DNA from: Isoetes taiwanensis
Lineage: Eukaryota; Streptophyta; Lycopodiopsida; Isoetales; Isoetaceae
Direction: 5' to 3'
Length of the DNA: 64,000 bases
NCBI GenBank assembly: GCA_021234155.1
Contig: JAJEKV010000126.1
Location: forward strand, 718,969-782,968
Under the pieces are notes generated by a model. The model was not told where the DNA came from and made no database searches. It was given only the letters and a program-made list of their open reading frames with translations. A program made the translations under genes and the position numbers. Below are positions 10,145 to 43,712 of the stretch, in pieces. The first letter of the stretch is position 1; the number at the start of each line of letters is the position of its first letter.

Positions 10145-11550
10145 CGCCTTCCGCTTCGGATATGATTAAGAAGAATCGTAATTAGAGACTGTTCATTTTT
10201 ACCAATGTCAAAGTTATTCCTCATCAAATGCTACACTTCTGCAAAAAAATCTTCTTCCTTGAGAAGGGGACATATAGTATATTCATTAATTTTATCACAA
10301 TAACCAATAAACATCCATGGAATTGAATAAGCTGACAACTTACCTACTTTTCGCTTAACCTGTTATAAGATGAGCAATATGTTGTGCATCTAAATATGTT
10401 CAAGTCCTCCATTGTAGGCTTTTTCCTTGTCCAACATTTGTCCAAAAACTAATTTGGAACAGCTTTGGTGGACACCCAGCTTAGAATATACATTGTTGTA
10501 TTAATAACTTCAGTCCAGAACTTACAGAAATGTCTTGAACAACGTCATTGAGCGAGCACTTAAAAAAACAGTGCAATGCTTCCACTTTACCACTACATTC
10601 TGCTGATGTTCATGAGTCGCAAACGTCTCGTGATGAACGCCACAATCGCTTAAGAAAGAATCAAACTTGCCATTCCTTTCTTTCAAAGAAATCTTCAGCC
10701 TAAGCCTTCCATTGTTTGAAATTCGCAAATGCATCATATTTATATAGCATGAAATAAACCCAAAATTGCCTCCTAAAATCATCGATTATCAGTATAAAAT
10801 ACTTGATCTGCTAATGGATTTCAACTGAACAGACTCTCCAGACGTCATGGCAGTTCTATTGCTCTTTCTTTTGGTATAAGCCTTTCTGCTAAGCATATCT
10901 AACCGTCATATAGATCTTCGAGGGAATCTTGACCTTGGGCATATCCTTCACAAAATTTTTTTCCTTCATTTATTTAAGGAGCTGGAAGTTGGTATGGCCA
11001 AGCCTTTTGTGCAAGATCTGATTATTGTTTGTGCATTGTGCATTCAGAGCAATTGATTTCTCTTTACACCAATTCAACTCATAGAGTACTGCCTCGAACT
11101 CCTTCAACTTTGATGCTATGATGCTTCTCAAATTAGGGTGTTGTCCATTGCCAAAGGTCACAAAAGACCCACATCATCCATTATAAGAAGGAGTTTCGTA
11201 ACTTGGCATTACCTGCAGCCAGTTCAAGACTTGTTGTTCAATACCTTTGATCGACAGAATTTCCTGATCTATTTTGACTTTTCTGCTGCTAGAGAATTCT
11301 TCAAGGGATTCAACGAGGTCTCTCCTCCCTGCCATGTCATCACTAGCTCCTGAATCTAAATACCATTTTCCTGGGTTAGCGGTCATTCCAGGGTGCCATG
11401 CTTTCCAAGGATATTTTTATCCCATTCTTTTCTACAACCCATGTACACATCAGCTTGATACAATGGAAAATCCACAAGGTATATACTAGCTAAGTTACTC
11501 TATGAATCCTTGTTAGCAATGAAGGTTCAGATCAACGTGACAAAAGCAAT
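10145..11550 (-). mobile_element. Ty1/copia protease-integrase remnant
   Basis: From high to low coordinates: aspartic protease start WYLDSGASDDM (about 11350); GAG-pre-integrase ILHKRLGHTNFQLLK (about 10970-11020); integrase core with YFILIIDDFRRQFWVYF (about 10760-10800); FDSFLSDCGVHHETF and HQQN (about 10600-10660); then an ARSMT motif and an integrase C-terminal stretch down to about 10200. This is the copia order. Stops and frameshifts occur throughout. The gag part continues across the 12-kb insertion at 23596. Confidence 0.85.
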
Positions 11551-11571
11551 GGGTAAAAGCCGTTGTGGTGT
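11548..11571. repeat. Left TSD (AAT) and terminal inverted repeat
   Basis: AAT at 11548-11550, then the TIR from 11551. Its partner is 23574-23598 on the opposite strand. Confidence 0.75.
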
Positions 11572-11699
11572 ATCAAAAGCGCATTTTGACGCCACATTTT
11601 GGCACCACCTTTGTGGTAGAATCGGATGGTGCATACCGCTTTAGATTGGGAGTCGCGAATTAATGTTATTTTGAATTTTATGCCACATCATTGTCCCTC

Positions 11700-12540
11700 A
11701 TTTTGAATTAAGAAATAATCACATCTTCTTCGTTTTTGCCTTCTTGCCGATTGAACCTAATGGAGTCAGAATTGAATGCCACCGGTTACACGATGAAATC
11801 TCTCCTCAAACAAGAGATTGTGCCCCATGAAGATCTAAAGAAGCTTTTGGGTGACAGAGTTTCAAATAAATCGCAAGTATTTTCCCCAAATGTTTTGTTC
11901 AAACCGAAAAATTAAGGCATATGTTTTCTTGTACAAGTTGAAGAATTTGAAAGCAATGAACAATACAAAGAGTTCATGCAAATTTACAAAAGATTTACAG
12001 GGAAGCCACATACATGGGGTGGAATGGCTCCCTCGAACCCGAAAGCAATGGCTTATTATCCGATATAAAGGGGAGGTCATAATTGGAAGAGCTTCTGATT
12101 ATTATAAAACTCCCGATGAGAAAGCAGAGGCCAGTTCTTCTAGACCCAAGAGAGAAAGCATAGGCAAATCCAACCTCGACCGAGGAAAATAGTAAAAGTG
12201 ATGTGGATGATGAAGATGATAGGAAAAACCAAATCAGGTTCCTCTAGACCACATTCAATCTGAACTCATAATCCAAACAAAAAGCAGAGCAATGTTCTCG
12301 AGACCAAAACATGCCATTGCGGAATGTTCAATTATTAGTTGTGTTACAATAGAAAAAATCTCAAACTTGACCTAGATTGTTTCTATCAACACGAGAAAGG
12401 GTAACCTCAAATCCACTTTAAGAATCAAATATCTACTACCATTTTGCATCATATTGGTCAGATTGTCATGTTGTGTCTCTATGATGCCATCTCAGGCATT
12501 TTTCACAAGCAATGGATGCTTAATGATGATGAGATATGTG
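11700..12540 (+). other. Left interior of the 12-kb transposon, possible decayed ORF
   Basis: An open plus frame of 113 codons (11851-12192) has coding-like composition, with a basic middle and a Ser/Lys-rich end (KAEASSSRPKRES). I do not recognise the family. It may be an accessory protein of the transposon or chance. Confidence 0.25.
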
Positions 12541-12570
12541 TGGTCCGGGTGGTGGTGAGTTGTTGGCATC

Positions 12571-12915
12571 CACCATGTCCCACACCACACCCCCACCATC
12601 TCCCCACCACCGCACTCTCTACCATATCCCACCACCACACTCCACCATGTCCCACACCACATCCCTCCACCACACCCACCACCACCACACCACACCACCG
12701 TGACTCCACCATGTCCCACACCACACCCCTCCCACCACCACCCCACCACCACACACCTCCACCACCACCACACTCCACCACCACCACACTCCACTATGTC
12801 CCACACCACACTCCACCACCACACCACACCCCACCACCACCACACACCACCACCACCACCACAACCCACCACTACACTCCACCATGTCCCACACCACACT
12901 CCACCACCACCACAC
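12571..12915. repeat. CCACCACAC-rich minisatellite
   Basis: Almost pure C/A/T sequence in which a ~22-bp phrase containing CCACCATGTCCCACACCACA recurs about five times. It is separated by variable CCACCAC runs. The long His/Pro/Thr and Gly/Val/Trp frames across it (for example 12492-13028 minus) are composition artefacts. Confidence 0.9.
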
Positions 12916-12929
12916 TCCATTGAAGCAAT

Positions 12930-15900
12930 GATTGCAAGCAAATGAGGATAGGAAAATGATATCAAAAGAAAAATTGAGTTGATGGAGCATAAAGCATCAA
13001 AAATTAGAGTCGATTTGCACGATGGCAATCAATCATGATAGCAAATCAAAAGCGGCAGAGGGTGTTCTGTTGTGTTTTAACTAAAGGATGAAGAGCTAAA
13101 ATGGTACAATGTTGCCCTGGCTGAATCAATTAAATAAGGAACTAGCGTAAATGGAATTGAGCTAAAGGCATGTGAAGACTTACCTGCGGTAAACCCCGAA
13201 TGCAAAGATTTGAGATTTTTTCTCGAGCGTAGTGGTCATGACACTCCTTTAGATCCCGCACTTCCAATGCTTCGAGGCAAAAGAAGAGGGTGATGAAGGT
13301 TGTCCATTTTTGTGGACGTTTTGTTCGAAAATGGGAGGGTAAAATGTTGCCAGCCAGTGATAGCGAAATGCGGTCCACCAATATCATATTCCATGTCTAT
13401 CACACCATTTGAGGTAAATATTATCATCTCTAACCCTCGCCTAAAGACTCTATTAATTTTGAATTTGTTTTTGCATTACACTCTAGAACCCTGCTTTGCA
13501 GCCCCGCTGGTTCCACATTATGATCGAGACATGGCTTTTGGCTTTTGGTGTTCGAGAAGTACCAATAAAGAACCAATAGACACAAGTAAGTGCCTTAACT
13601 AATGTTCATCGATGTTGTCACGTGGTCTCCATCGACTTGGTATTTGCGTAATTGCGTAAATTTGAGACCAAGGATACCCAACGCTATCCACCGGATGCTT
13701 ATGAGATCAAAGATACCTCCCTAGTGTACCTAGAATTCACCCCATTTGATACTTCTAAGTCAATCCTAGTTGACAAATAAGTGGAGACTCCAAACTAAAT
13801 TTGATAGTGAATTGAATGCGTCAGATCGCGGGCACCGATGCCACATACATGATTTATTTTTTGTATTTTTTGGTCTTCCTCATTTCAATTATGTTATTGC
13901 AGGTAGATGCTAATGCTTTAGAAGCCATCAATGGCGAGATTCCTAGTGCATCCAGTTTTTAGGGGGAAATTAATTCCCCTTGAGATTCATTCCCCGACGG
14001 ATCCTTCACCGTAAAAGTTTTGGTGTTGAACATGAGCGAAATGCGGATGCGTGTGATGAAGTTGACAAAGAAACCCAAGATCCCCGGACAAGATGCGACC
14101 GCCTAATGAGTCCAATACAACCTCAACCAAGAAAACCAAGAGGTTAACCGAGATTCTCCTTTGTTCTCGATTTTAATGGGTTTTAAGCAAGTTTTATGAC
14201 TTGAAAGAGAGGATCCCTACATCGATCGAGCCAAAGTGACCCTCCAAAAATTGAACCTTCAAAAGGCAGCAGTTTGTAGGCCCGGGTTACAGGAGTTCTT
14301 AGAATGGTGTATCATCAAAATTTGAGATTGCATTGTGGTCCAAAGATGGCTACGAGTAATGTTGACTTGTTGATGAGAAAGTTGATGCGTGAATATAAGG
14401 GCAGATTTCTTTTATTTGGAATCGATGACGCATCCAACACAAAATTAAAAGTGGTTAATAAGCTAATTTTCCTTAAGGATCTGTCCAAAGTGTACCAAAA
14501 ATACCGAAATACCAAGTGAAAACACATTGTTGATAGATGACAACAGATATAAGGGTTCTCCGCCAACCAAAATTTAACACAATGATATGTCCAAATAGTT
14601 TTGCCCCCTCGGCAGGTTGATTCCAATTTCCTTTTGAGCAACTCAAACCATGGCTCGAAGGGCTTCGCTGCAAAAAGTGTGCCTATGTGAAGGAACATCA
14701 AATGTGGAACATGTGGGATTCAAGAGTTTCACAAGAACCGCATGAAAATGCTCGACAAGTATTTTCATAAATGAATCTTGTAAAACTCTTTGAAAGTCCA
14801 TATAAGTAAAAAAAAAAATCTATGATATGTGTTGTAATGCTTTCAATTTAAAATATTTGAATGGATTGTGAGCAAATGTTCTCGTGTGTTTTAGAACTAG
14901 AGATGATAGAGCTCGCAAGCCCTCGCTTATCTAAAAGCCACATACACATTTGGAAGTGGTGCCGAATGAACCGGAACGTCGTGGAATAGCTCCAATCGAC
15001 ATTAAAATTTTGAAGTGATATAATACGTTCAATAATCAATTGATCCTCCTTTCTCAAGGTGATACTTTCATCCGATTTGTGATCATCGTGATTGTGCCAT
15101 CATATGTATATGTTTGCAGATACATGGAATACTACTTGATGCTCCAAGGAATGAGCCATCCCTTTCATTTCTTTGACCCTCTTTTTCACTTCCTCGACAT
15201 TGTCCAAGGACACAAATAGTTAAAAAACAATAAGGAAACATGTGAACTGGATAAGTGCCAAGAAATGTTTTTGCCCCGCTTGTGATGGACATCAATCGAC
15301 CTCGCTTTTCTTCGATTGTAAGCCACGCTGTCTCGTGATAGAGATATAAACCGGGATATATCACTTTGATGGCTCTGGCCTTGCATGGGAGAAGCATATT
15401 GAGAGATGTGCTTGCTCATTGCATTTTCTATTGTGGCACAATGACAACAAACTTTGAATGCGTGTTCCTCGAATTGCTTGGACACAATAATTTCAGCTTT
15501 ACAACCCTCGATGTTGTGAAAATTTCCGTAAAAGCATGGTTTCATTAATTAGAGAAATTTCGCTTTCTCGCTTGACAATGAAATAGGTCGGTCACCCTGG
15601 GGATGGTAAGAAATGATTCCTCCTCAATCAAAACAAAGCGCCAATAATCCTAAGTTCAGCTTGAAAAAATAACACGCTACCATAATTTGACACCGTGCAT
15701 GTGGCCCAAAGTCGCCATGACAAGAAAGAATCGAGGGGTTTGAGCAATCATTTAGTGGTCGCAAGGATCGCCATTGCGATTCTTGCAAGAACAAGTGAAG
15801 GTATCACAAGAAGCACATTGTGTGCTTCGTGGGTCAAGTTACCATCCGGGGGATGTATAATCAGGTACGTAATCGCCACCGCTGATCTTCCGTGACTACT

Positions 15901-16250
15901 TTGTTTATCCAATTCAAAGTTGAGATAACACAAAAGCATAGTGAACAAAAGTATAACACATAGTGAACCCAAAAGCATAACTCATAGTGAACCCCCGAAA
16001 CAGGTGAAAATTTAAACACAATGTTTTAACAAAAAGTTTGTACAAAATGCCCAGCACAAAGGCGAAGGCTATATCACTGAGTCTCAAATACAGTCTCTGG
16101 ATAAACACCATGTTGAGCAGCTATTCTTGCAATATGCTCCTTTCCAATAGCAAGGGTCAGGTCCATTTCTAGATATCCAAATGGTCATTATGACGGCCGC
16201 ATCATTATGATCGGCAAATCATTATGATCGGCATATTCCCCCATTCCCCC
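12930..16250. other. Transposon interior, degenerate coding-like sequence
   Basis: There is no intact gene. Short plus-strand stretches look protein-like: DANALEAINGEIPSAS after a TATTGCAG acceptor-like site near 13900; DRAKVTLQKLNLQKAAV near 14230; and 14304-14519. A minus-strand stretch with two CxxC-like pairs (15186-15545) also looks coding, so strand is unresolved. CAG/CTG are scarce here, and some frames may be broken by missing bases. No family recognised. Confidence 0.25.
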
Positions 16251-16837
16251 AAAAGCAACCCCCACCTTAACGACGCGAATGTTGACACGTGAGAATTTGT
16301 GTGAGAGTGACTGGAGGGCAGGTGGAAAGGACAACAAATCACCCACGGCATGTCAGTTTAAATTGGATAGGGACAGGGACAATAGGGCATAAAAAGGTCC
16401 CGCCCGAAGGACAACATTTTGAAATTCAAATCCATTTCAAATGCGGTAAGACCCCAAGACTCTCATTGTTGCAAAGCTTGGGAAGGAGTTGTTCGAGGCG
16501 CCGGAGTTAAATTGAAGGCGCTTATGGTGGATTACAATGGCGCCGGATGAATTTCAAGGCATCCAAGCATATTTGACGCTGTAGAATTCATTGAAGGCCA
16601 AAGACAGCAAGTTCATTCATTAAACCGTGTTTTCGCTAAATCACCGCGATGCACCCCTTCTTTGTGTCCGTAAATCAACCCGCTCTAATTTGGGAATATA
16701 GATTGCCTCTATCAACAATTCTTAAGATGTTCCCGCTTGTAGGCTGATATCATTCATCTTCCTCTCGATACAGTGATCCTTACTTCAAGCACGAGCTAGT
16801 AACATCGATCGCTGGATAAGGCGATCTTGTCGAACAT

Positions 16838-17130
16838 ATTCTAGACTAAGGTACCATTTAATGCTCTCCCATAAAGTTACCCATCAATGCTTATTGATTC
16901 ATCTGCTTCTCCCGGTCATCCCTACGACACGCCTAGTACCGGTCCGGATCGCTGGAAGGCTTTTTGGGCGATCATAATCTAGACTAAGGGTACGATAATC
17001 TAGACTATGGTATCCTCGCTGTTCTAGGAGACTATGGTATCTGCTTGTTCTAGGGTAACGATAATCTAGACTATGGTATCCGCTTTCCTAGGCAACGATA
17101 GTCTAGACTATGGGTATCTCGCTTGCTCTG
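16838..17130. repeat. Minisatellite with TCTAGACTA core
   Basis: Five or so partial units share a core like GATAATCTAGACTATGGTAT (near 16974, 16993, 17050 and 17097; weaker near 16841). Each is followed by a CT-rich linker ending in CTAGG. Unit length is irregular (about 20-55 bp). Confidence 0.7.
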
Positions 17131-17139
17131 GAGATCGCG

Positions 17140-18195
17140 TCGCGATCCTCGCTAACCACGCCCGGCTAACGGAAGTTGTCTTGCTTTGAAGTTGGTTGCT
17201 TGAAAGTGCTCGCGGACATCAGCCCGGTGGCATTTTTCCGAAAGCAATAACGCCCATTGTGCTTGCGTATTACGGTCGCCTCAAGTCCATACTATTCCAT
17301 GGAGTCAAAGCGGGCGGGGAAAGTACAAGCACCACAACTTGCCCTTGCCGAAAAGATAGCGCAGTGTCTATGGAAGTTATTCTCGACGGAAGCATTGGTT
17401 TGCCATTTCCTGAACCAAAATTTGCAACACTCGCCCGATTCGCGAGGGGAGTTTTATTTTGTGGCCGCAGCGGATAGCTACCCTTACACAAGAACCTAAA
17501 ATATCCACACCGCTTGCATCGATTAAAAAATTGATTGGTCGGGTTGTAAAAGCACCGAAAGCCTCAAGGGATTTCAAGGCATTTCAAGGGACGAGCTAGT
17601 AGAGAAAAGTTGCACACTACTCCATGATCGCCGCAACATTCCGTGATGCCCTTGGGGTGATCATCTTCATTGACCCTAATCAGTCAGTTTATGACATGAA
17701 ATTGGGAGAAGACTACTTGGCGCAAGAACCATAATGAAGATATTCCCTATGCCGATAGGCCGACCATGCATGCCAAGCATGTGCTGAAATGCCACGCTTG
17801 CAACGACCGGTGAGGTGGCCGATTGTTTTGGTGTTAGTAGACAATGTTGCCGTGTCAACACTCATAAAGACCCAAACGCATACCATTGAAGGTAACCCTA
17901 TGCCATGCAAATTGAGCCCGAAAGGCACCAAAGAGGATGTAATGCAGAATGGGTGAACCGGACCCCACGCTCACCTCCCCGTGGGCCACTAAAGTCGAGA
18001 GAAAATCACAAAGCAGCCTTTCCATTTTAGACTTTAAGTCTTCGCTACCGACATGATAAGATGTCGCGCAAACTTCTCAACATCGGAGATAGCGTGTATG
18101 CGTAGGTTCTATTGAACTTGCGAGCTTCGCATGGACCACATTTGTTTTCAACATGTTAGACGCCCGCTCACCGTAACGGCCCGGTCCAGAAGCCG
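17140..18195 (+). other. Region upstream of the transposase-like gene
   Basis: Several overlapping open plus frames (17196-17477, 17257-17499) and a stretch reading FIDPNQSVYDMKLGEDYLAQ near 17670 look protein-like but cannot be joined without guessing. They may be the decayed N-terminal part of the gene at 18196-20341. No recognised domain. Confidence 0.3.
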
Positions 18196-20341
18196 ATGCT
18201 AAATAATAAGCGTGTATGCTTGAAAGCATGGCATAGAGCCTATGGTATTCCAATGTCCACATTCTATAAGTGGCGAAGACTTTTCCTTGCTGGTCACAGA
18301 GTTGCCGAGCATGGTAACACGGGCACGAAAAAGCCGAGGCCCCACACTCTCTCCCAAAGGCCATACTCTATGTACATAGATGAGAATGCGCAGACGATGC
18401 CCCACGATCAAAAATCACTCATCGGCGGGTGAGAGAGAATGTGAAGAGGCTCCCCCGTCCTAACTAAAAAGGACATTCTTCAAGAGGTGGACGCCAATGT
18501 GATGGAGATGACGCCAAGTAGCACATCTCTCATTCTTCATTCTCACGCGGGTGGAAGCAAAATCACGCAGAGGTTGCAATAATAGCAAAGAGGACAAATT
18601 TTCTCCAAGTGCAATACAGTATTGTAATAAAAGAGAAAATGGCTAAAAACAGAGATCCACCGGAGAGAAGAGAATTGCAGATGGAAAGGAAGGAACACAT
18701 GATGTTCTCGTGATCTCTTGTAGGAGCTTGTATCGGTCATGGAGAGCTTTGTCCCATCGATCACCGGACCAAGCGCCGCTATCATACATGATAAGATGAC
18801 CAAACAAGACTATGATTCCAAGACTGAGAAATTAGCCAAACAGTGATGGAGAGGTGAACGCTGAAAGTTAGCGTGGATCGGTGCACCGATGCATGGCCAT
18901 GGCACGTGCATTAGGACATTTCACCGACCTTTGGAAGGATGATTCAAATTTTCATGTTGGTTCCTTGAATCATGCTATCAAAACACCGGAGGACACTTCA
19001 AGACAATTGGGGTCATTCGCCCGAGGGCATGGGGAACCGCGACTCCTAAACAAAGTCGTGGTTGAGGACAAAAAAACAATTGCACCGGGTAGACTTTGTA
19101 GCACGCCCTAAGCAACCAAATAAGCAATTTAAGAGGTTACCTAGGCGGCTCTACTTGCATCTAGACAATCACAGGCGTAATAAGAAATCGATATCTCTTC
19201 TTTATCTATCCTATCTTGTGTGGTTGGGTGTTTTTTGATCAAATACAGTTGGCTTCATGATGGTAGGCCACACTCATGATGACATTGATGCTTCTTCGGT
19301 AACTATTCAACGCTAATGCACGTGTCCATGCTCTAACTATTCCGTAATAATGCAACTCTTCCGAGAATGTAGCACACTAAGGCACCCACACCATACCTTG
19401 TTACCGAGGTTCCCCGACATTGGAAGGGGTTCGTGAAAGGTTACATTCCCGATAAGAAGGACCGCTTGGTTGGTCACTTGGAGCCCCGACATTCAAGTTC
19501 TCGCATGAATGATGGGTGGCCATTAATGTATTACAAGATGAGACCCGGTCATAGAGAATGGTTGCCGTAAAAGGGTATTCTGGATGTGGAAAGCGGATGA
19601 CAATGGTTTGCCAAAGATACCGATTGGCTCGCCCAAGACTGCTGCCATATGCATGCCTCAAGGACATAGGAGCATTGAGGTCATCCATTGGCGGCACATG
19701 ATGCAACGGGCTAACATCTCCTGTGGCTGGTGTGAACTCGTGGTCTAATACCTACATGAACGAGGTCATAGACTCATCGGTGCGGGCGGATGCGGTGCTA
19801 GGTGAAGTACCCCCCTCGCAATCCAGAAATTCGTAACTTCGGCCTCAAACAAGGCAAGTTGTGCTTCAAGAGCTCGAATCTATTCAGGTCGATCCATATG
19901 ACGCCTCGTCAGCCTATGTTGGACCCTTTTCCGCTAAGGATAAAACCCAAGAATGCAAGGGAGATATTTGACCCATACCAAGATGTACGTGAAAGGTATG
20001 TTTCTTCTTGTAAGACCAGCAGATGCATGTCCTACATGGGTAGCGATATGAAGAGGATCCAATACAAGATCCCAATCCGCCTCATTATAACGAGGTTTTT
20101 GTTTCTTGGTGGGAGCCCGTGGGCTAGGAAAGGCACCGCGACGCCAACAATGATTGGATCACCGGTATAAAAGTGGAGGCCAATCCTAATGACGAACCCA
20201 CGTTATCGCCTCTCAAAACGATAAACTATGCTTGGTTTGTGGAACCAAGCCATTATTGGTTGTGATAATCGACGATTGTAGGAATCCAGCCACGTGAATT
20301 GCTTGCTAAAGAGGCATCCGAGGAAGGAGATGAAACTTGAG
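18196..20341 (+). pseudogene. Transposase-like protein resembling DUF7869 family, decayed
   Basis: In-order protein fragments spread over three frames read: KRVCLKAWHRAYGIPMSTFY and a basic linker with EHGNTGTKKPRPHT (18205-18350); KKDILQEVDANVMEMTPSST (18465-18530); ELQMERKEHMMFS (about 18670-18715); a damaged MID...NKTMIP stretch (about 18785-18815); LYLHLDNHRRNKKSI (19149-19193); GFMMVGHTHDDIDAS (19251-19295); NDGWPLMYYKMRPGHREWLP (about 19505-19580); and VFVSWWEPVG with NYAWFVEPSHYW near the end (20090-20260). From memory, the LDN...NK and GHTHxDID pair and the helical N-terminus resemble a large uncharacterised eukaryotic family labelled DUF7869, common in mosses, algae and invertebrates and suspected to be transposases. 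The acidic motifs could be catalytic, which is inference. Frameshifts and stops make this copy inactive as sequenced. Confidence 0.6.
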
Positions 20342-20519
20342 TCTTACAGTACATTAAAGCATTTCACAATAGACTATTTATTATCCATAACATCACTACA
20401 ATAGACTATTTATTATTCATTACGCCTTGCATTTTTCATCTTAACACAAGAGCTCTTTTACACTATAACATGGTGAATGTGTGATTCATTCATCTTCGTG
20501 ATCTCGTAGTAGTGATCCC

Positions 20520-21475
20520 CGATATCTCATAGCTCATGTGCTCGAAGCCAAATCGATGGATCATCACACGAATTGACGCAGGGCAACGAATCTCGCCCAA
20601 AGCTTTTCTTCGCAGTAGGGATCAAGAAGAAGATGCCCTGCCTAGGCAACCAACAAGATCGAAAGTGGCTCATTGAGCACTTGATCGCCCCGATGTGGTG
20701 AACTGATGAAGGCAAAAAATCCATGGAGATGAATGAACTTTAGCCCCGGCGAGAAGTTTTTATACCGAGGTAAAATTATTGGGGTAGACTTTACCCCAAT
20801 TATTGGGCGGTATAAGACCTGTTGTATACATACAAGTATAATACATCTTCGTATGGATATGTTTTGTGGATTCATGATGGTAGAAGTTTTTGTGCTTTAG
20901 TAATCTGGTGTGATTGAAAAGCTTGCGCATATATAGTGGAAGTCAAGAGCACAACCCTACACTACTATCGTATGATACATCAAACAATATTCATTGTGCT
21001 ATTACATCCTTACATAGTTTATAGGTGCTCATACCATTATTATATCATAAACGATACATGAGTCATCATCGATAACATTGATTCACTCATCATCAACACC
21101 AAAGCACGGATGCTATTCAAATTTAGATCTCTTGATCGTGAAGCCAAGAAATGTGGACCACAACACGAAAGTGAGCTTTTGCAAGCACTAGCAGGACCAT
21201 CAGCTTTAGATTGGAGCCATGGATCAAGATTAACACCATTTCTAGCGATTCATTCAGATCGTTGTAGCTCGTAGCACTTGAAAGATCTGGATGTGTTCGG
21301 ACGAGGCATCGAGGAAGCCATGGAAGATGAATGATCTCTACCCCGAAGTCGAAATGCTTTTTATAGTGAAGTAAAATTATTGATGTGAATTATTTAGGGC
21401 CATTATTGGGCTTCTACAAGTATCATGTACACGCATAAGTATAACACATAATTTGTATGTATATTTGTATGTTAA
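20520..21475. repeat. Diverged direct repeat inside the 12-kb transposon
   Basis: About 20520-20880 and about 21130-21475 share order and wording: a GAAGCCAA...GGATCA block, a CCATGGA...GATGAATGA block, a TTTTTATA...GTAAAATTATTG block, and an AAGTATAA-ACA...GTATGGATAT end. Similarity is roughly 60-70% by eye. It could be an old tandem duplication or the ends of a small nested element. Confidence 0.5.
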
Positions 21476-21479
21476 TTAC

Positions 21480-23430
21480 CCTCATGTTTGTTGGGCTCGA
21501 ACTAGGTGAAAGTATTCGCTTGAGCAAATAAGGTGTGCTTTTAAATTCTCAAATTATGTATTTTATCCAATTAATGAAATCATGTTCTCAACGCCTCTTC
21601 AAAACCGATGGTCATTCATGTGGCCCTGCAAGATGTTCGCTTATGCAATAAATTTGTGAGAGGGTACTTGAAAGGAGTGAATATATTGTTGCCCCGATCT
21701 AGTAAGTCAACTCAAATGCACAACAAACCAGCTTATTGACAAAGTGTAGTTAACGCAGGTTATGGACATTTCGCACCAGATCTAGTTGATGTTAGAGTGT
21801 TTATGCTTGAAAGTTTAAGATTAGAAGCAACAAAAAGCCGAACCGAGAGGAACATATGTATTAGAGTATGTAGGTGCATGAATCACCTTGTACTTTAAAT
21901 CATCGATATCTTTCTTATGTACATAATTGTTATTGTAACCTCGATTCATTTGAATGAAAATTCATATTCAATTCATCTCACAAACAAAGGAATCAAGTGT
22001 TCGTAAGAATTCAAATCTTCAAAAGAAATCAAGACAAACTCATTTTCACAAATTGCACAAAAGTTCGATGAGTTCAAAACTACGTAATGGTTTTACATTT
22101 CATCATCATCAAGAAGAACTTTGGGTAAAATTTTGTAAAATTTTCCCTCATCTAAAGGATCCAAAATTTATATACAAATATATGTTTTGACGCTTAGTTG
22201 GTGGGCATGTGAAGTCCGATTGCACAGATTCAGACCGTTAGAGAATACTATGCCTAAGGCATCTTTACCGGCAAAGATCATAGCCGACGGGTTGATCTTG
22301 CCTTTCTTGTAATACATACCTTCTATGACACTATCAACGTGAGATACCATGTTCCATTGAGTTATCCGGTCATTCTCAAATATTTTTAGATTGTACACAC
22401 AATCAAGAAAGGAATACTCAATTCTCACATGTTCTACTATTCCAAACATTAAATATTGCATTTCGCACTAGAGTCAACTACACACAATTCACATGCCGCA
22501 TGCAAGACAATCACAATCATCAGACAACACAATAACCACCACATGCACCACCACACTAAGCACCATAACTAAGAAAACATGAATAACAACAATAAACTAA
22601 CCCGTGATTCCTCCCAGATAGTGGGCAGCATGTTCTTCTCTTACATTTCTCTCCCAATCTTCTAGTTCTAACATCCTTTGTGTTAGGAGACACTCCGTGT
22701 TCTCAATCCAAAAATTTTGAATCTTTTCTATATGTTCATCCTAAAATTGCATCGAATCTTTTAGCCCTCTTGTAAGAAACCCATTTCCCACCATTGTAAT
22801 CGATTTATTCCTCTTTTTCTTTGCCTTTTGCAGGTTTCTTTGGGTGAACACCTAATACCTTTCCAAGATCTCTCACTTGTTTCGTAATCTACACGACGGG
22901 TACAGACATTGCAAGGCAGCCTATTCTTGGTCGCTAGGGCGCCATTGCCGGTAGAGAGTTTGATTAACTGCATGGAGTCCCAGAGGCTCCTTTGTAATGA
23001 TGCTCTTGGCTTCCAAATCTTTTAATACTTCACCTATGAATTTTTCAATGTTTTATCCCTCAAAAACTCAAGTAAAAAATTTCTTTCTTCATGCTATCCT
23101 CAATTTTGGTCTCTTTTATGGAAAGACGTTAGCAAATTAAGGACAATACTACTAAGCATCGCTTGCACTTCTTGATGAACCGGATCCTTCTACCAATTCT
23201 CGCAAACTCCAATTTTTCTTCTTCTTCTTTTTTTCCTCGCCTTTTCTTCAACATTTCTTCTTCCTTGGTTCTTCTTCGCTTTTCTCCTGGCTCAAATGCC
23301 GTTTTGTGGACGATTACCTCATTGACATCCATATCCACAATGGATCTGAGCTTGCATAGCAGGAGGGAGCCAAAGAACAAGACGTAGGCAAAAGAACAGG
23401 AGGGGCCAAAGAATAGGAATTTGAATTTTA
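21480..23430. other. Right interior of the 12-kb transposon
   Basis: AT-rich sequence with short, unrecognised open frames: a plus frame at 21954-22190 and minus frames at 22168-22461, 22761-22973 and 23129-23380. The last is strongly Lys/Glu/Arg-rich, from a CTTCTTCTT-type tract. Taken together the three minus frames could be the remains of a second, minus-strand transposon gene, but this is a guess. Confidence 0.25.
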
Positions 23431-23573
23431 GTTTTTGAAATTAGAATTTCCCACAAATTGGGACTCCATTCTTAAATAACTAAGTAGCTTGAGCTTGCCA
23501 TAATTATACTTTCATACCACAAAAGTGGCGGACGAATGCCATATTTTGGGGGATGGGGGATAAACCGGTTGGA

Positions 23574-23598
23574 ACACCACAACGTGCTTTTACCCAAT
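23574..23598. repeat. Right terminal inverted repeat and TSD (AAT)
   Basis: The TIR ends at 23595 (reading ...GCTTTTACCC). AAT follows at 23596-23598, after which copia gag sequence resumes. Confidence 0.75.
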
Positions 23599-25085
23599 GA
23601 CCGCTTGAGTTATTCTTTGATTCATTTGAACCTGTGTGCTTGTATGCCTTATGGCCATGGGCATGTTTCTTCTTTTGTGGAAGGCCGTATATATCATCCG
23701 GGATGTGGTTAATCTGGACACCCATTATTAGCCATAAAGAACCATGCACTTCAATTTCAAGCCCAAAACCAACTATTTTTTCCTTTTTTATCGATTCTCG
23801 CTTATTCCACCTCAAATCTCTTTTCCCTTCATCAATCTAGCATAAAAGAGGCATACAAAGCGATTGACATCCTTTTTAAAGCGAATCAAACCGGCCACGG
23901 AGTAGCAAGAGCGATCCGATCAAAATTTCTCGCCTCACGCACAGCTTCTACGCTCGGGTTTTTGTCCCGATTAACCACTTGGCTGATATCGGATGTCTGG
24001 ATTAACCACCCTGGCTGATACTGGATGTCCGGATTAAGCACTCTGTTTTGTCCGGAAAAACCACTTCCCAGATGATATATACGGAGTTCCATCCTTTGTC
24101 CCATTCCCTCTTGCTTGCTTGGTTTCTTCCATGATAATATGTCGGCATGTCCATTCAAACTCAACATGCTCGGATGAGCCTATGAACCACCCATGTACAC
24201 ATCTGTTTGATATAATGGAATATCCACAAGGAAGATAATTCTATTAATTGCAAAATTGATAGCTACTCTATGATTTCTTGTTAGCAATGAAGGCTCGTAT
24301 TACTGAGACAAAGGAATTACTACTTGAGTTGTTCTTTGATTCATTTGAATTTGTCTGCTTGCATGCCTTATGGCCACGAGCATGTTTCTTCTTGTGATTC
24401 TACACATCCCTTCTAGATTGTTTTTTCTTTCTTTTTCTTTGATTTGGCTCATTACAGTCCTTGGCAATATGCTCAAATTTATTGAATTGTATCATTTTAT
24501 AATTTCCTCTATTTTTTCCACTAATTCCTGCCCATACTATGTCCCACCAACACGTTTCCCTCTTGCTTGGTTGGTTTCTTCCATGACGATTCTTGGCATA
24601 CCCATTCAAGCTCAACATGCTCGGATGAACCTATGAGGTACTTCACACTATTATAAGATGTTTGCCACCCTAATAGCAAGGCTCCTATAATAAGATTATT
24701 GTCGAGACCTTTCTTTATATCTTGCAGTGAAGTGTTGCTGGCTTAACTTTTGGACATGTACTCTTTAACTGATGAGCAATCTTTTAGTTTGGTTGTGAAT
24801 ATGACAGAGTACAAGTTTGCTTATTGGGAGAAGTGGTTCTTCCTGTAGAGGTTGGACAATTGCTTCCTAGTTACTTTGGAGCTTTCAGCTGCTTCTAACT
24901 ATGCAATGTCTATCATATAGATATCATATCATGCAATTCAAGCTTCCTAGTCTTTCTGCTTCCACTTAAGTAGAGCTTGATTATCAGATTCACTAATTCT
25001 TTGATAAGCTTTCCTTTCATTTGATTCATGGAAGTAGCTCTTTTTAGCATGATAGTACGACACTCTGTTGAGCACCGCATCCATT
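23596..25085 (-). mobile_element. Ty1/copia gag remnant, internally duplicated
   Basis: On the minus strand the gag start reads MDAVLNRVSYYHAKK (about 25040-25080), then LLKWKQKD (about 24950) and, after further gag sequence, a zinc-knuckle remnant NKFEHIAKDC (about 24450-24480). A segment of roughly 450 bp is tandemly duplicated. One copy is 24186-24640. The other runs 23596-24185 and continues at 11430-11550 beyond the 12-kb insertion. The duplicate provides the empty-site control for that insertion. Frameshifted and inactive. Confidence 0.7.
23970..24045. repeat. Short tandem repeat, ~31-bp unit
   Basis: ATTAACCAC..TGGCTGATA..GGATGTC.GG occurs at 23970-24000 and 24001-24032, with a partial third unit. 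It lies inside extra sequence present in only one of the two gag copies. Confidence 0.7.
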
Positions 25086-25995
25086 TTATAACTGATTTTC
25101 AGTCTGAATAGAACCAGACCATTTTATTGCTCTTCTATTTTCTGTATTCCTTCATGGTACCAGAGCAGTTCATTCACTATGGCTGCGGTGGCTTTATCAG
25201 AGAAGCATAAACAGAAGGGAATGGAAAGAATTGAATATGCAAATGCATTTTTAATTGGTTCATAAAAGTTCAAGGAAAGATGTCGGAGAAAGGTCTTTGG
25301 CACATGGTTTTTGGACATGACCACAGCCTGAAAATATTTAGATGCAAGGCATATGCTCACCTCATAAACAGGTAAGTTGTCAGCCATGTCAATTCCATGG
25401 ATGTTTGTTGGTTAGGGTATGGTCACACAAAGATATCAACATTAACTCCTTCATGTTGACATGAGCATCTAAATTTGAACAGGGTCGCATGAAGATGTCC
25501 AACAGCACCAGAGCTCCTGCACTGTTCTTCTTTCTGCCGAGAACTCTGCGTTTCCAAGTGTCCTTAGATTTACCACGTGTTGAAATCCAAAGGATTCATG
25601 TTGACATGAATCCGCCCAACGGCGGTAGAAAATCGGTGAAAAGATAGACGCCAACGTGAATTCCTTCATATCAGAAAACTGCATGTGACCCTTATTTTGG
25701 GTTTTTTGACATCCACCGATCAATGTCAACGTCTTCGTGTGACCCCGCCCTTATAGAGATAAAATTAAGGGATATAAACTATATGTCCCCGCTTCAAGGA
25801 AGATGATTTTTTGCAGAAGTGTGGCATTTGATGAGTATAACTTTAGCATTCGCAAGAATGAGAAGATCTCTAGTTCTAATCCTGTACAAATCATATATGA
25901 AGTTGGGATGGTACCAGATTACCAACCAGGATGCAGTCACGGATTCTTTTGCTTGGTACACCATTTCCTAGATTATGGAGAGATCTCATGGTTGT
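25050..25995 (+). mobile_element. Left arm of inverted copia repeat
   Basis: Apart from the MITE at 25415-25750, this is the reverse complement of 27385-26745. The plus strand carries a copia integrase C-terminal to pre-RT stretch (IFRCKAYAHL near 25350; SPLQGR near 25790). This is joined head-to-head to a minus-strand gag start at 25030-25150. Both arms keep that odd junction, so it predates the inversion. Confidence 0.7.
25415..25750. mobile_element. Tourist-like MITE (336 bp)
   Basis: The left end reads GGGTATGGTCACACAAAGA. The right end, reverse-complemented, reads GGGCGGGGTCACACGAAGA, and imperfect pairing continues to about 30 bp. TTA flanks both sides (25412-25414 and 25751-25753). 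The other arm of the inverted repeat (about 26990-27010) lacks the element and has one TTA at the junction. The TTA duplication and GG start fit PIF/Harbinger (Tourist). It has no coding capacity. Confidence 0.8.
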
Positions 25996-26010
25996 AGAGA
26001 ACCCTGACTT

Positions 26011-26568
26011 CATTAGAGGAAATTTGAGATCTCATTTCATCCCCATAAGAATCCTCCAATGGAATGGCTTACCCTCTATTAACTGCAATTAATGCAGCAC
26101 CAACAACTTCATTGCTGTTGTTTTCCCCCCATAACTTTTGATCCACTTGTCAAAATGTTGCGGCGTTTGTTGCATTAGATGCAGAATGAAAAGATCTTTC
26201 CAATGATATATGGTTATGATGTATTTCAATATGGTCATATCGTTAACCTTAAAAAAAATATGATTTTTTTTGCTTATTTCTTATATATTTATATATCGTA
26301 AAAGATGTATGAATGGGTTATCACTAGATAGGTCTTGTGAAGATCGAACACATTGCTACAAAAAGTTTTTGAATCGGAGTTCGATCAAAAAGTTATAATG
26401 AAAATGATACTATTGAGAAGTTAGTTGCAAATGACATTAATTACAGTACATACATAACATGGAATGAGATATACCTGAGCTCTTCTCTATTGGATGGTTT
26501 AAAAAGTCGACATGGCATTTTAAGCATCCCTTAATGGGACAAAATGTGATCTCATTTTTCCTCTAATG
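26011..26568. mobile_element. Second TIR element in the inverted-repeat spacer
   Basis: Both ends begin CATTAGAGGAAA when read inward. They pair over about 45 bp with roughly 80% identity by eye. Length is 558 bp and there is no open frame of note. Flanks do not show a clear target duplication (a TA pair is possible if the true end is GAGGAAA), so the superfamily is open. Confidence 0.6.
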
Positions 26569-26613
26569 TCCCCGGATATCGGTGGTTCCATAAGATGACT
26601 ATGACCCCACAGG

Positions 26614-26706
26614 ACTCCTAAGGGACAACACGTCAGAAGTTTCACAGTTGCAAAAAGTACTCACAAAGAAATAATAGAGCAAAGAGGTGTTGTTCCTTAG
26701 GAGTCA
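26614..26706. repeat. Short inverted repeat (hairpin)
   Basis: GACTCCTAAGGGACAACAC near 26614 and GTGTTGTTCCTTAGGAGTC near 26688 are complementary at 18 of 19 bases around a ~55-bp loop. It may be a very small MITE. Confidence 0.6.
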
Positions 26707-26744
26707 CATTAGGTTGTTATGAAATCACTGACGTCCAGGTAAAG

Positions 26745-27385
26745 TCAAGTTCTCTACAATCATGATCTCCCCATGATCTAGAAAATGTTGGATCAAGCAA
26801 AAGAACTGCGTGACTACATCCTAGAACCGTGGTAATCTGCTACCATCCCAACTTCAGATATGATTTGTGAAGGATCAGAATTAGAGATCTTCTCATTCTT
26901 GACAATGCTAAAGTTATGCTCATCAAATGCCATACTTCTGCAAAAAAATCATCTTCCTTAAAGAGGGGACATACAATTTATATCCCTTAATTTTATCCCT
27001 ATAACCAACAAACATCCATGGAATTGACATGGCTAATAACTTACCTCGCTTTTGCTTAGCTGCTTATGAGGTGAGAGCATGCCTTGCATCTAAATACTTT
27101 CAGGTCATGGTCATGTCCTGAAACCATGTGCTAAGGACGTTTCTTTGACAGCTTTCCTTGAACTTTTATGAACCAATAAAACGCATTTGCATACGTTAAT
27201 TTTTCAATTCTTTCCATTCCCTCATGTTTCTGTGTCTTTGATCAAGCCGCCGCGCTATGGAGGATGAATTGCTCGTACTATGAAGGAATACAAAAAAGAA
27301 AGAGCAATGAAATGGTCTAATTCTATTCGTAATGAAAATCGCTTTAAAAAAGGGTGTGATGCTCAATATAGAGTGTCGTACCATC
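26745..27385 (-). mobile_element. Right arm of inverted copia repeat
   Basis: Minus-strand copia integrase-end to pre-RT sequence running into a plus-strand gag start at about 27265. It matches 25050-25995 in reverse and lacks the MITE found there. Confidence 0.7.
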
Positions 27386-31221: not shown

Positions 31222-32807
31222 TGTGACGTCCCCTACTCCTTAACGATGCATACATCGTATCCGGGGGAGGAGCATTCCCTCCGGCAGCTACAATCGACAT
31301 ATTATATCCACCGACTCCACTCCTAGTGGAATGAGCCCAAGGGAAGAATGGATGTGTCATTCACCCGCCTTCCATCGGGTCGACCTATCTAGTTTTTATA
31401 AAACAAACATGAGCACAAACTAACAAGATATATATAAATAAAACCACCTCAAGGGTGAACATATCATAACATCACGTAGATAACAACATCAACATAACAA
31501 TAACAGTAAAGGGGAATCCTACCCAAGGCTCGAACTCGAAAGGGGGTGGATGGACGGGCTTGGGCCTCCGTAAGTCAATGCATGACTAATTCATGGCAAT
31601 GGATTTGGCGGGTATAGAACATGGCCGAGGGTAGTCCACTCCATCCGCCCCCCACACGAGTAGGTCAGACAAGTGCCCGGGACCCCTCGCCGTAGCCTAC
31701 CCGTGAATAGCCGAGGGGCTACTACTCCGGGTTGCATCTCCCCCGATCCAATGAGGCAGAGGAGAGTTGCCTCCTCCGTAGGCATACATGCTCATCACAG
31801 CGGCTAGAGGGGCCACCGCCTTATTCGACTAAACTCAATGGAAGGCGACGCATCACCCCACGAGTGTCGAGCTCATGCCTTGCCCACACGCAGCAAGCCC
31901 ATTAAGCCTAGCCCACGTAGACCCCCCCGATAGGCCTTTACTACCGCAGGGGTCAACCGCGATGAGACAAGTTCCTCCTTATCAACCGCCTAGCCCCTTC
32001 ACCAAGAACCGTGCCCCTCTGCACTCCCGCATTAATTGGGTACTAATGATACTATGCTAGGATCATCTTCTACAAGGCTACTTTAGGGTCTCTACCCCCT
32101 TCCCAATACATTGAGGTCACAGTAATGAAATACCATCATCATCACAAAACTTGAAATGAAGAATATCATCTAATCTATCTACCTAAACACGTAGTTAGGT
32201 TCCTTAGTTAGGGCTTATGATCTCGATCTATAAGGCCTCTATGGCTAAATGAATATGCTAAACTACCTCATTGCCTAGCCTAAAGACGGCTTTGCACAAC
32301 AATGATCTATACCTCTCCTCCGCCTCTTCCGCCCTCGAACGCATCCATGTCCCCCATCTTGTTGAAGATGGTCGCCACTCCACCTAACCACAGCAGTAAA
32401 GGCGGCTTTACGCATTCGAAAGCAATGCGAATGTGGTCTTCACTTGGTAGAAAATGGCGCAAGAGAACCCTAAATGCGAAATGAGAAAGGAGCTTTTATG
32501 GAAACCCTAAAATGCAAAGAGAGAAAAGGGTTTAGGGTTTAAGGGGAAAGCCTTTTATAGAAACCCTTAGGGTTAGGTTAGACATTGGCCAAATGGGATT
32601 TAGCTATTTGGCAATGGGGTCCATGGGGTTATAATTGTGTATGTTTATTTAACATGCACAACATTCAATGTTGCCCCTAGGTGCAACCCTTGCCCCCCTA
32701 GGTGCAACCCTATATCGCCAAGCAAGTACATGTCATCCGGTGGACATGTATGGGTGACGGGCAATATAATATAATGTGTTCGGCATATATTATGCTGGAA
32801 CGTCACA
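31222..32807 (-). repeat. 3' LTR of gypsy element
   Basis: 1586 bp, aligned over its length with 42237-44421 apart from the MITE there. It contains a TATA-type box on the minus strand (CTATAAAAGG, 32551-32560), followed downstream on that strand by a CT-rich leader that could hold the transcription start. Runs of TTAGGGTTT occur near 32525-32580. Confidence 0.8.
32551..32560 (-). promoter_or_regulatory. TATA box in 3' LTR
   Basis: CTATAAAAGG on the minus strand, conserved at the same place in the 5' LTR (43581-43590). LTR promoters lie in U3, consistent with this position about one sixth of the way into the LTR. Confidence 0.55.
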
Positions 32808-42235: not shown

Positions 42236-43580
42236 CTGTGACGTCCCCTACTCCTTATACGATGCACACATCATATCTGAAGGAGGAGCATTCCCCCTGG
42301 TAGCTACACTGATAGGGGCCATCCACCTGACTCCACTCCCAGTGGAATGAGCCAGCAAGGGAAGAATGGATGTGTCACTCACCCGTCTTCCATCGGTCGA
42401 CCTATCTCTTGAGCTAGCACGAATAAACAAACATGAGCACAAACTAACAGTATATATAAATACAACCACCTCGAAGGGTGAACATATCATAACATCACAG
42501 AGATAACAACATCAACATAACAATAACAGAAAGGGGGAATCCTACCCAAGGCTCAGACTCAAAGGGGTGTGACTGACGGCTTGGGCCTCCCGTGTCAATG
42601 CATTTCGGAATTCATGGCAGATTTGGTTGGCATAGAACATGGCTGAGGGTAGTCCACTCCATCCGCCTCCCGCACACACTTTGCGCAGTAGGCCAGACAA
42701 GTGCCTGGACTCGGCCGTAGCCTCACGGGTGAATAGCCGGGGGGGCTACTACTATTGGGTTGCATCTCCCGGCCCAATGAGGCAGGAGGAGAGTTGCCTC
42801 TCCTCGAGGCATCCATGCTCATCACAGGCGGCTAGAGGGCCACCGCCCTTATTCGACTAAACTCACTGGAAGGCGACGCATCACCCCACGAGTGTCGAGC
42901 TCATGCCTTGCCCACACGCAGTGGCAAGCCATTAAGCCTAGCCCACGAGACCCCGATAGGCCTTACTACCGTAGGGTCCGTGATGAGACAAGCTCCTCCT
43001 TATCAACCTGCCTAGCCCCCTTCACCCACAACCAAAGTGCTCCTTGCGCACGGGCCGCAATAATTGGGTACTAATGATACTATGCTAGGATCATCTTCTA
43101 CAAGGTTGCTAGGGTCTCTACCCCCCTTCCCAATACATTGAGGTCACGTAGAATGAAATACCATCATCATCACAAAACTTGAAATGAAGAATATCATCTA
43201 ATCTATCTACCTAAACACAGTAGTTAGGTTCCTTAGTTAGGAGCCATGATCTCGGGATCTATAAGGCCTCTATGGCTAAATGAATATGCTAAACTACCTC
43301 ATTGCCTAGCTCAAAGACGGATTTTCACAAATGAATCGATCAATACCTCGCTCCCCCGGCCTCTTCCGACTCCTAACGCATCCATGTCCCCGATCTTGTT
43401 GAAGATGGCCGCCACCTACCTAACCACAGCAAAGGCGGTTTTACGATTCGAGCAATGCGAAAATGGGGTCTCTACTTCACGAAAAATGGCGTAAGAGACC
43501 TAAATGCGAAATGAGAAAGGAGCTTTATGGAAACCCTAAAATGCAAAGAGAGAAAAGGGTTTAGGGTTTAAGGGGAAAGC

Positions 43581-43590
43581 CCTTTTATAG
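43581..43590 (-). promoter_or_regulatory. TATA box in 5' LTR
   Basis: CTATAAAAGG on the minus strand, same position as in the 3' LTR. This would be the promoter for the genomic RNA of the element. Confidence 0.55.
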
Positions 43591-43712
43591 AAACCCTTAG
43601 GGTTAGGTTGCAATGGGGTCCATGGGGTTATAATTGTGTATGTTTATTTAACATGCACAACATTCAATGTTGCCCCCTAGGTGCAACCCTTGCCCCCTAG
43701 GTGCAACCCTAT

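Follow-up and report, generated by a model that had tools for sequence, protein, structure and literature searches.

The Sola transposons are described in sections of PMC10741241 as elements with a DDD (three-aspartate) transposase, 4-bp target site duplications (TSDs), terminal inverted repeats (TIRs) of 11-1124 bp and a length of mostly 2-9 kb, in some cases above 15 kb; they occur in moss and are uncommon in flowering plants. For amoebae, an excerpt of PMC3627910 gives Sola2 families with 4-bp duplications, one of them with a transposase of 888 residues. Sola has moreover been mentioned in passages on Azolla (PMC6786969), Ceratopteris (PMC6890710), and moss and Capsicum (PMC9033089). Here we describe a transposon located in a 64,000-nucleotide stretch of the Isoetes taiwanensis genome (GenBank GCA_021234155.1, contig JAJEKV010000126.1, positions 718,969 to 782,968; hereafter the window). 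It is very probably a decayed, non-autonomous and Sola-like member of a large TIR family, and it was hit by a second transposon. We call the two the outer and the nested element, respectively; their features are collected in Table 1.

Ends of the outer element and length of its target duplication

The left end, GGGTAAAAGC-CGTTGTGGTGT, occupies 11551-11571, and an inverted counterpart at 23574-23595 agrees with it in 21 out of 22 columns. Nowhere else in the window does the two-ended pattern occur, and 0 out of 100 shuffles yielded it. The alignment score of the ends (37) was reached by 0 of 20,000 random 60-mer pairs; the best random score was 36, so this control alone is narrow. AAT flanks both ends (11548-11550 and 23596-23598), and when the element is removed and one AAT is kept, the joined flanks align without interruption to 24186-24396 of the window, i.e. 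to an uninterrupted copy of the target. Since the flanks bear copia-type domains, one out of three above the Pfam cut-off, the insertion site is a copia element. These domains are on the minus strand: gag_pre-integrs on the left (29.0 bits, cut-off 28.4) and, below the cut-off, Pol_BBD on the left (E=3.9e-5) and Retrotran_gag_2 on the right (E=0.0013). The precise bounds, the empty-site control and the copia target had been put forward in an initial annotation of this locus, and all three are borne out by these results.

The I. taiwanensis assembly (1,658,258,908 bases, 1110 contigs) was searched with the 150-bp ends, as that annotation had proposed. The left and right ends gave 485 and 465 first-look candidates, respectively; numbers of this kind are unscored here and below and are no verified copy counts. 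For each end 40 candidates were scored and all matched (40/40 for either end). Among these 80 end places there are six left-right pairs, the window included, that lie 3.4-25.4 kb apart. From each of 20 copies the initial 10 kb were read, and for 8 of them the reading was extended. Four are complete and two-ended: L011 (9646 bp), L013 (10698 bp), L015 (9852 bp) and L023 (10537 bp). The other 16 are not complete, i.e. some are interrupted or broken within 10 kb and some were not read beyond. TIRs of 22 bp are present in the window copy and in five other copies, and the complete copies start with GGGTAAAAGC. The ends thus pair at a distance and come from one family, not from two unrelated insertions.

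Both flanks were read for eight pairs. Six of them have exact 4-bp duplications (AAAT, CCAT, TTCT, AACT, GATT, CTAT), the seventh is imperfect (AATA/AGTA), and the eighth is the window copy, where CAAT precedes the element and AAT follows it. A 3-bp reading fails in all six exact pairs. In other words, the 3-bp duplication, on which the initial annotation had relied, is present at the window copy and is a trait of that copy, whereas the family makes 4-bp duplications; a C may have dropped out of a CCCC run here. Similarly, the 12-kb size given earlier agrees with the 12,045 bp that are spanned, but it is enlarged by the nested transposon of about 6 kb.

The duplication length bears on the superfamilies that use 3 bp, such as PIF/Harbinger, CACTA or Zator. 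Membership in any of them would agree with AAT/AAT in the window copy alone, and we consider it extremely improbable: besides the 4-bp pairs, Harbinger, CACTA or other known transposase domains were not found in the six frames of the window element (E up to 1), in the scanned part of L011 or in the transposase described below (E up to 10). Taken singly, PIF/Harbinger is ruled out by the 4-bp duplications and the missing Harbinger DDE Pfam domain, CACTA/EnSpm by the GGGTAAAAGC termini and the missing CACTA transposase Pfam domain, and Zator by the TSD, which is 3 bp in an excerpt of PMC10045372. Mutator/MULE is ruled out by the same 4 bp, as opposed to the 7-12 bp given in a section of PMC10741241.

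Two loci show repeated parts of the outer element. At L010 and L028 (C1103:1366215-1391522) its first ~830 bp, without about 220-400, occur four times over ~22 kb; a segmental duplication seems likely because two out of the four repeats have an identical left flank. At L014 (C1030:13339009-13349008) the left end occurs three times in a row with a spacing of ~1.75 kb, and the third continues as a longer element, the sequence read ending short of its right terminus.

Table 1. Positions of the features in and around the outer element (window coordinates)
Feature	Position	Strand	Remarks and basis
Target duplication, left copy	11547..11550	.	CAAT, right side retains just AAT; sequence and 4-bp family TSD
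Left TIR	11551..11571	+	End alignment, shuffles; 40/40 scored left-end matches begin at query base 1-5
Outer transposon copy, Sola-like	11551..23595	+	12,045 bp with the nested element counted in; ends, genome matches, other copies
CCA-rich tandem array	12569..12913	+	A second, inverted array is present in the four complete copies
NIF/FCP1-like phosphatase gene relic (cargo)	14135..14684	+	tblastn; 7 and 15 stops in two overlapping matches; PF03031 identity taken from other copies
Nested second transposon	15532..21586 (about)	+	Left end AAGCATGGTTTCATTAATT; element of ~10.2 kb, here shortened to 6 kb
Decayed DUF7869 gene of the nested element	18229..19900 (approximate, by eye)	+	Broken over three frames
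Junction lacking 3.2-3.6 kb of the complete copies	22363..22370	.	Copy comparison; the lacking part holds the transposase core
Transposase gene relic, N-terminal part	22655..23078	-	tblastn
Right TIR	23574..23595	-	End alignment, shuffles, genome matches
Target duplication, right copy	23596..23598	.	AAT; sequence
Uninterrupted target paralogue (empty-site control)	24186..24396	.	Alignment of joined flanks

The transposase and its superfamily

At 22363/22370 the window copy joins two points that lie 3.2-3.6 kb apart in the four complete copies. The segment in between holds the core of the transposase gene, which is on the minus strand and has 428 open codons in L023; matches were found in all four complete copies, that of L015 with 12 stops. 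The window copy cannot make the enzyme core. It is also old, with 82-89% identity to the four complete copies. Transposase matches were scored at 98 out of 11639 candidate places. Such a match lies within 15 kb on the inner side at 14 out of 80 end places (12 elements), always on the expected strand, and at none on the outer side.

A homology search gave 57 relatives of the transposase at E<=0.001 and a profile search gave 130 at E<=1e-5. Among the 120 matches listed, the latter names Klebsormidium nitens, the liverwort Calypogeia fissa, Cryptomeria japonica and Taxus chinensis; animal relatives named by the homology search are the chiton Liolophura sinensis and the fish Cirrhinus mrigala. In viral contigs there were 100 pattern matches for relatives, none of which was confirmed. 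Pfam gave nothing at its cut-off for the transposase, the only match with E up to 10 being NID (E=0.09). In 19 relatives no domain reached the cut-off and DUF6597 appeared weakly in 2 (best E=0.00024). Three aspartates (in the contexts VDFAENY, SDGAASQFK and HGKGxxDG) are kept in 19 out of 19 relatives picked for near-full length and spread. Over 58 rows, counting those with a letter at the position, the first is kept in 57/57, the second in 57/57 and the third in 35/38, the query L023 being among the three exceptions. In view of the fold described next, we take this DDD triad to be the putative catalytic residues.

In the predicted structure (mean predicted local distance difference test value 84.8), strands and helices follow one another as in an RNase H-like core. 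When Foldseek candidates were re-aligned, retroviral integrases ranked top and IstA was among the 50 listed; Foldseek alone gave 0 PDB matches at E<=0.001 and a single viral model (E=8.3e-4), whose template modelling score is 0.16. The transposase has an N-terminal part encoded close to the right end of the element; in L013 a reading frame at this place has a helix-turn-helix match below the Pfam cut-off (E=0.0048). This part matches 8 out of 143 collected proteins, including Klebsormidium P0075 (E=2.4e-11) and the liverwort proteins P0132, P0118 and P0081, and it precedes the core in the Klebsormidium and liverwort proteins.

Because its TSD (4 bp in 6 out of 8 pairs), its DDD triad (19/19), its size (9.6-10.7 kb) and its 22-bp TIRs fit Sola, we regard the outer family as somewhat more probably than otherwise a branch of Sola, and then probably of Sola2; this assignment is by printed features. 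The likeness to the Sola and Sola2 elements in the excerpts of PMC10741241 and PMC3627910 extends to the 4-bp TSD, the DDD triad, short TIRs and elements of up to more than 15 kb. There are differences as well. Passenger proteins (Fanzor1) are noted for some of these elements in the parts cited; the outer family has an FCP1/NIF-like phosphatase instead. The TSDs of one Dictyostelium species are given there as AWWT, whereas in the outer family 7 out of 8 end in T and the AWWT rule is absent.

The transposase could alternatively represent a separate superfamily that does not belong to Sola and has only the 4-bp TSD and the DDD triad in common with it, and we give this a minor though not negligible weight. 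It would account for the lack of Pfam coverage, with weak NID and DUF6597 matches only, and for the fact that those relatives that have a protein name are called uncharacterized, hypothetical or unnamed. Since Sola termini are very variable in the printed part of PMC10741241, GGGTAAAAGC decides nothing in this respect. On the other hand, TSD, triad, TIR length and element size are all inside the Sola ranges printed in the portions of PMC10741241 and PMC3627910 concerned. Moreover Cryptomeria, the source of relative P0100, has 56.7 Mb annotated as DNA/Sola-2 in an excerpt of PMC11539532, a label that is not tied to P0100. A description of the outer family was not found among the matches listed from the gymnosperm and lycophyte transposon literature. 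The family had earlier been called a possibly undescribed one of seed plants. As regards novelty, the transposase is without a Pfam model, but the superfamily is probably Sola; as regards the host, I. taiwanensis is a lycophyte.

Ginger1 and Ginger2, as presented in part of PMC10045372, are alike in their 4- or 4-5-bp duplications and in the integrase-like fold. They differ in that the outer transposase has no Pfam integrase match (E up to 10), and Ginger was rejected on the ground that an integrase recognisable by sequence was not found, with only NID at E=0.09. The termini of Ginger, too, are different from those of the outer family.

If the outer family behaves like known DDD/E transposons, its DDD transposase would bind the TIRs, excise the element and join it to target strands with a 4-bp stagger, and gap repair would then create the 4-bp duplication; it is in this sense that we infer a cut-and-paste mode and movement by the enzyme found here. 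The window copy landed in a copia element, a deletion removed its transposase core, and a second TIR transposon with a DUF7869 gene inserted in it. If the window copy moved after the loss of the core, it would have depended on other copies for help.

A second group of outer-type transposases, about 61-70% identical and with some matches free of stops, was seen at G000:C1025:1407244-1408500 and C1064:1073238-1074389; it is possibly another subfamily.

The nested transposon and its DUF7869 gene

A six-frame Pfam scan of the window element gave one solid match, DUF7869 (PF25273) at 19128-19307 (E=5.8e-14, 52.6 bits, cut-off 26). The initial annotation had correctly stated that the recognisable protein is neither a Harbinger DDE protein nor a CACTA transposase, but it took the gene as the element's own. 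The gene belongs to a nested TIR transposon, the ends of which were set in the window by comparison with other copies. These ends are repeated genome-wide, with 605 and 945 first-look candidates and 40 matches out of 40 scored for each. Five pairs were read; the 4-bp duplication is exact in three (TTAT, TTAC, TTGA) and not in the other two. A full copy elsewhere is 10,210 bp long, its ends match in 23 out of 26 columns and it has DUF7869-like matches within. The nested element thus has, besides its gene for a DUF7869 (PF25273) protein, TIRs and 4-bp duplications (3/5).

The outer copies support the same arrangement. Nine out of the 11 that were aligned across the site are uninterrupted there, the other two (L013, L024) being rearranged, and the insert is absent from all four complete copies. 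The initial annotation had proposed to check whether the internal gene always lies between the outer ends; among the 20 outer copies, in the parts read, and L039, DUF7869 is present only in L022, whose outer element breaks off early. One could argue the reverse, i.e. that the 6-kb DUF7869 stretch is the original autonomous core and that the other copies descend from one internal deletion. The window copy alone among the copies read has the stretch at this place, and its own duplication is too decayed to be read there. We nevertheless hold this for very improbable, given that the stretch has its own repeated TIRs and, in other copies, its own 4-bp duplications, that most outer copies are uninterrupted at the site and that the outer family possesses its own transposase. 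An alignment overlap suggested that the nested insert had duplicated 9 bp, but the 4 bp of other copies rule this out. DUF7869 as the transposase of the outer element is ruled out by the position of the gene in the nested insert, and a relation between the DUF7869 profile and the outer transposase was undetectable (hhalign probability 0.2%, single sequence against profile).

The rearrangements of L013 and L024 differ from each other and are located exactly at the junction equivalent to window 15531, where the nested transposon entered the window copy, which suggests a fragile or preferred site.

DUF7869 gave 9902 first-look candidates genome-wide; 150 were scored, all were above the Pfam cut-off, and open frames reach 987 residues. 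Matches were found in 0 out of 14 control genomes. A homology search with a DUF7869 protein gave none at E<=0.001 (7986 scored candidates), which may be due to search words drawn from the low-complexity N-terminus of that protein. In the literature searched, neither the name DUF7869 nor the peptides GHTHEDID and HTHEDIDQ were found.

Two loci with DUF7869 genes, L037 and L038 (G000:C1018:2447500-2455500 and C1081:6386000-6394000), have open frames of 987 and 857 codons and 93.5% DNA identity over ~4 kb. They have a divergent second frame on the opposite strand without a Pfam match, which may be ParB-like. At L037:6086-6742, near a DUF7869 gene, an 18-nt palindromic motif around TATTCCGGAATACACTTT occurs eight times (at least 78% identity); these are perhaps binding sites.

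Phosphatase cargo and wider context

The plus-strand cargo of the outer element is an NLI-interacting-factor-like phosphatase (PF03031, E=9.6e-16, the query being a chimera of two copies). Matches are present in all four complete copies, decayed in L015. Genome-wide, 150 places were scored and all are 70-98% identical, 59 of them stop-free in the match. At 34 out of the 98 scored transposase places the phosphatase is convergent with the transposase, 2.4-4.0 kb off; one further neighbour is arranged otherwise. At six of these 34 places the transposase is less than 80% identical to the query. The phosphatase thus travels with the outer element. Purifying selection on the phosphatase was not evident from the ratio of nonsynonymous to synonymous polymorphism (pN/pS), the pooled value being 0.58 (nine copies) versus 0.62 for the transposase; most background frames are at 0.5-1.0 and a few stop-filled ones are as low as 0.37. 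The phrase "NLI interacting factor" was not found in the 6 papers listed out of 303 that matched it together with transposon terms. The fungal transposons with TET/JBP genes, in the part of PMC12730594 that treats them, are alike in being DNA transposons that bear an extra enzyme gene, and differ in superfamily and cargo.

A transposase family outside Pfam now has a defined element with known ends, duplication length and gene order, including the phosphatase beside the transposase, and a concrete role is suggested for DUF7869, i.e. as a gene of a TIR transposon. In a speculative and rather doubtful extension, the transposase would define a superfamily across streptophytes and animals without a Pfam model. 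In a lycophyte it would keep an RNA polymerase C-terminal-domain-type phosphatase as conserved cargo, possibly acting against host silencing or on element transcription, and a second, perhaps commoner TIR family would use a DUF7869 enzyme. A section of the I. taiwanensis paper (PMC8566536) reports 38% of the assembly as annotated repeats, and the outer and nested families may add to this share.

Two further repeats were seen in the window. Direct repeats of 1.5 kb at 31222-32713 and 42237-43712 (85% identical, 11 kb apart) are candidate long terminal repeats. Inverted repeats lie at 25751-27106 (longest 118 bp, 92% complementary) and are partly repeated at 10154-10406.

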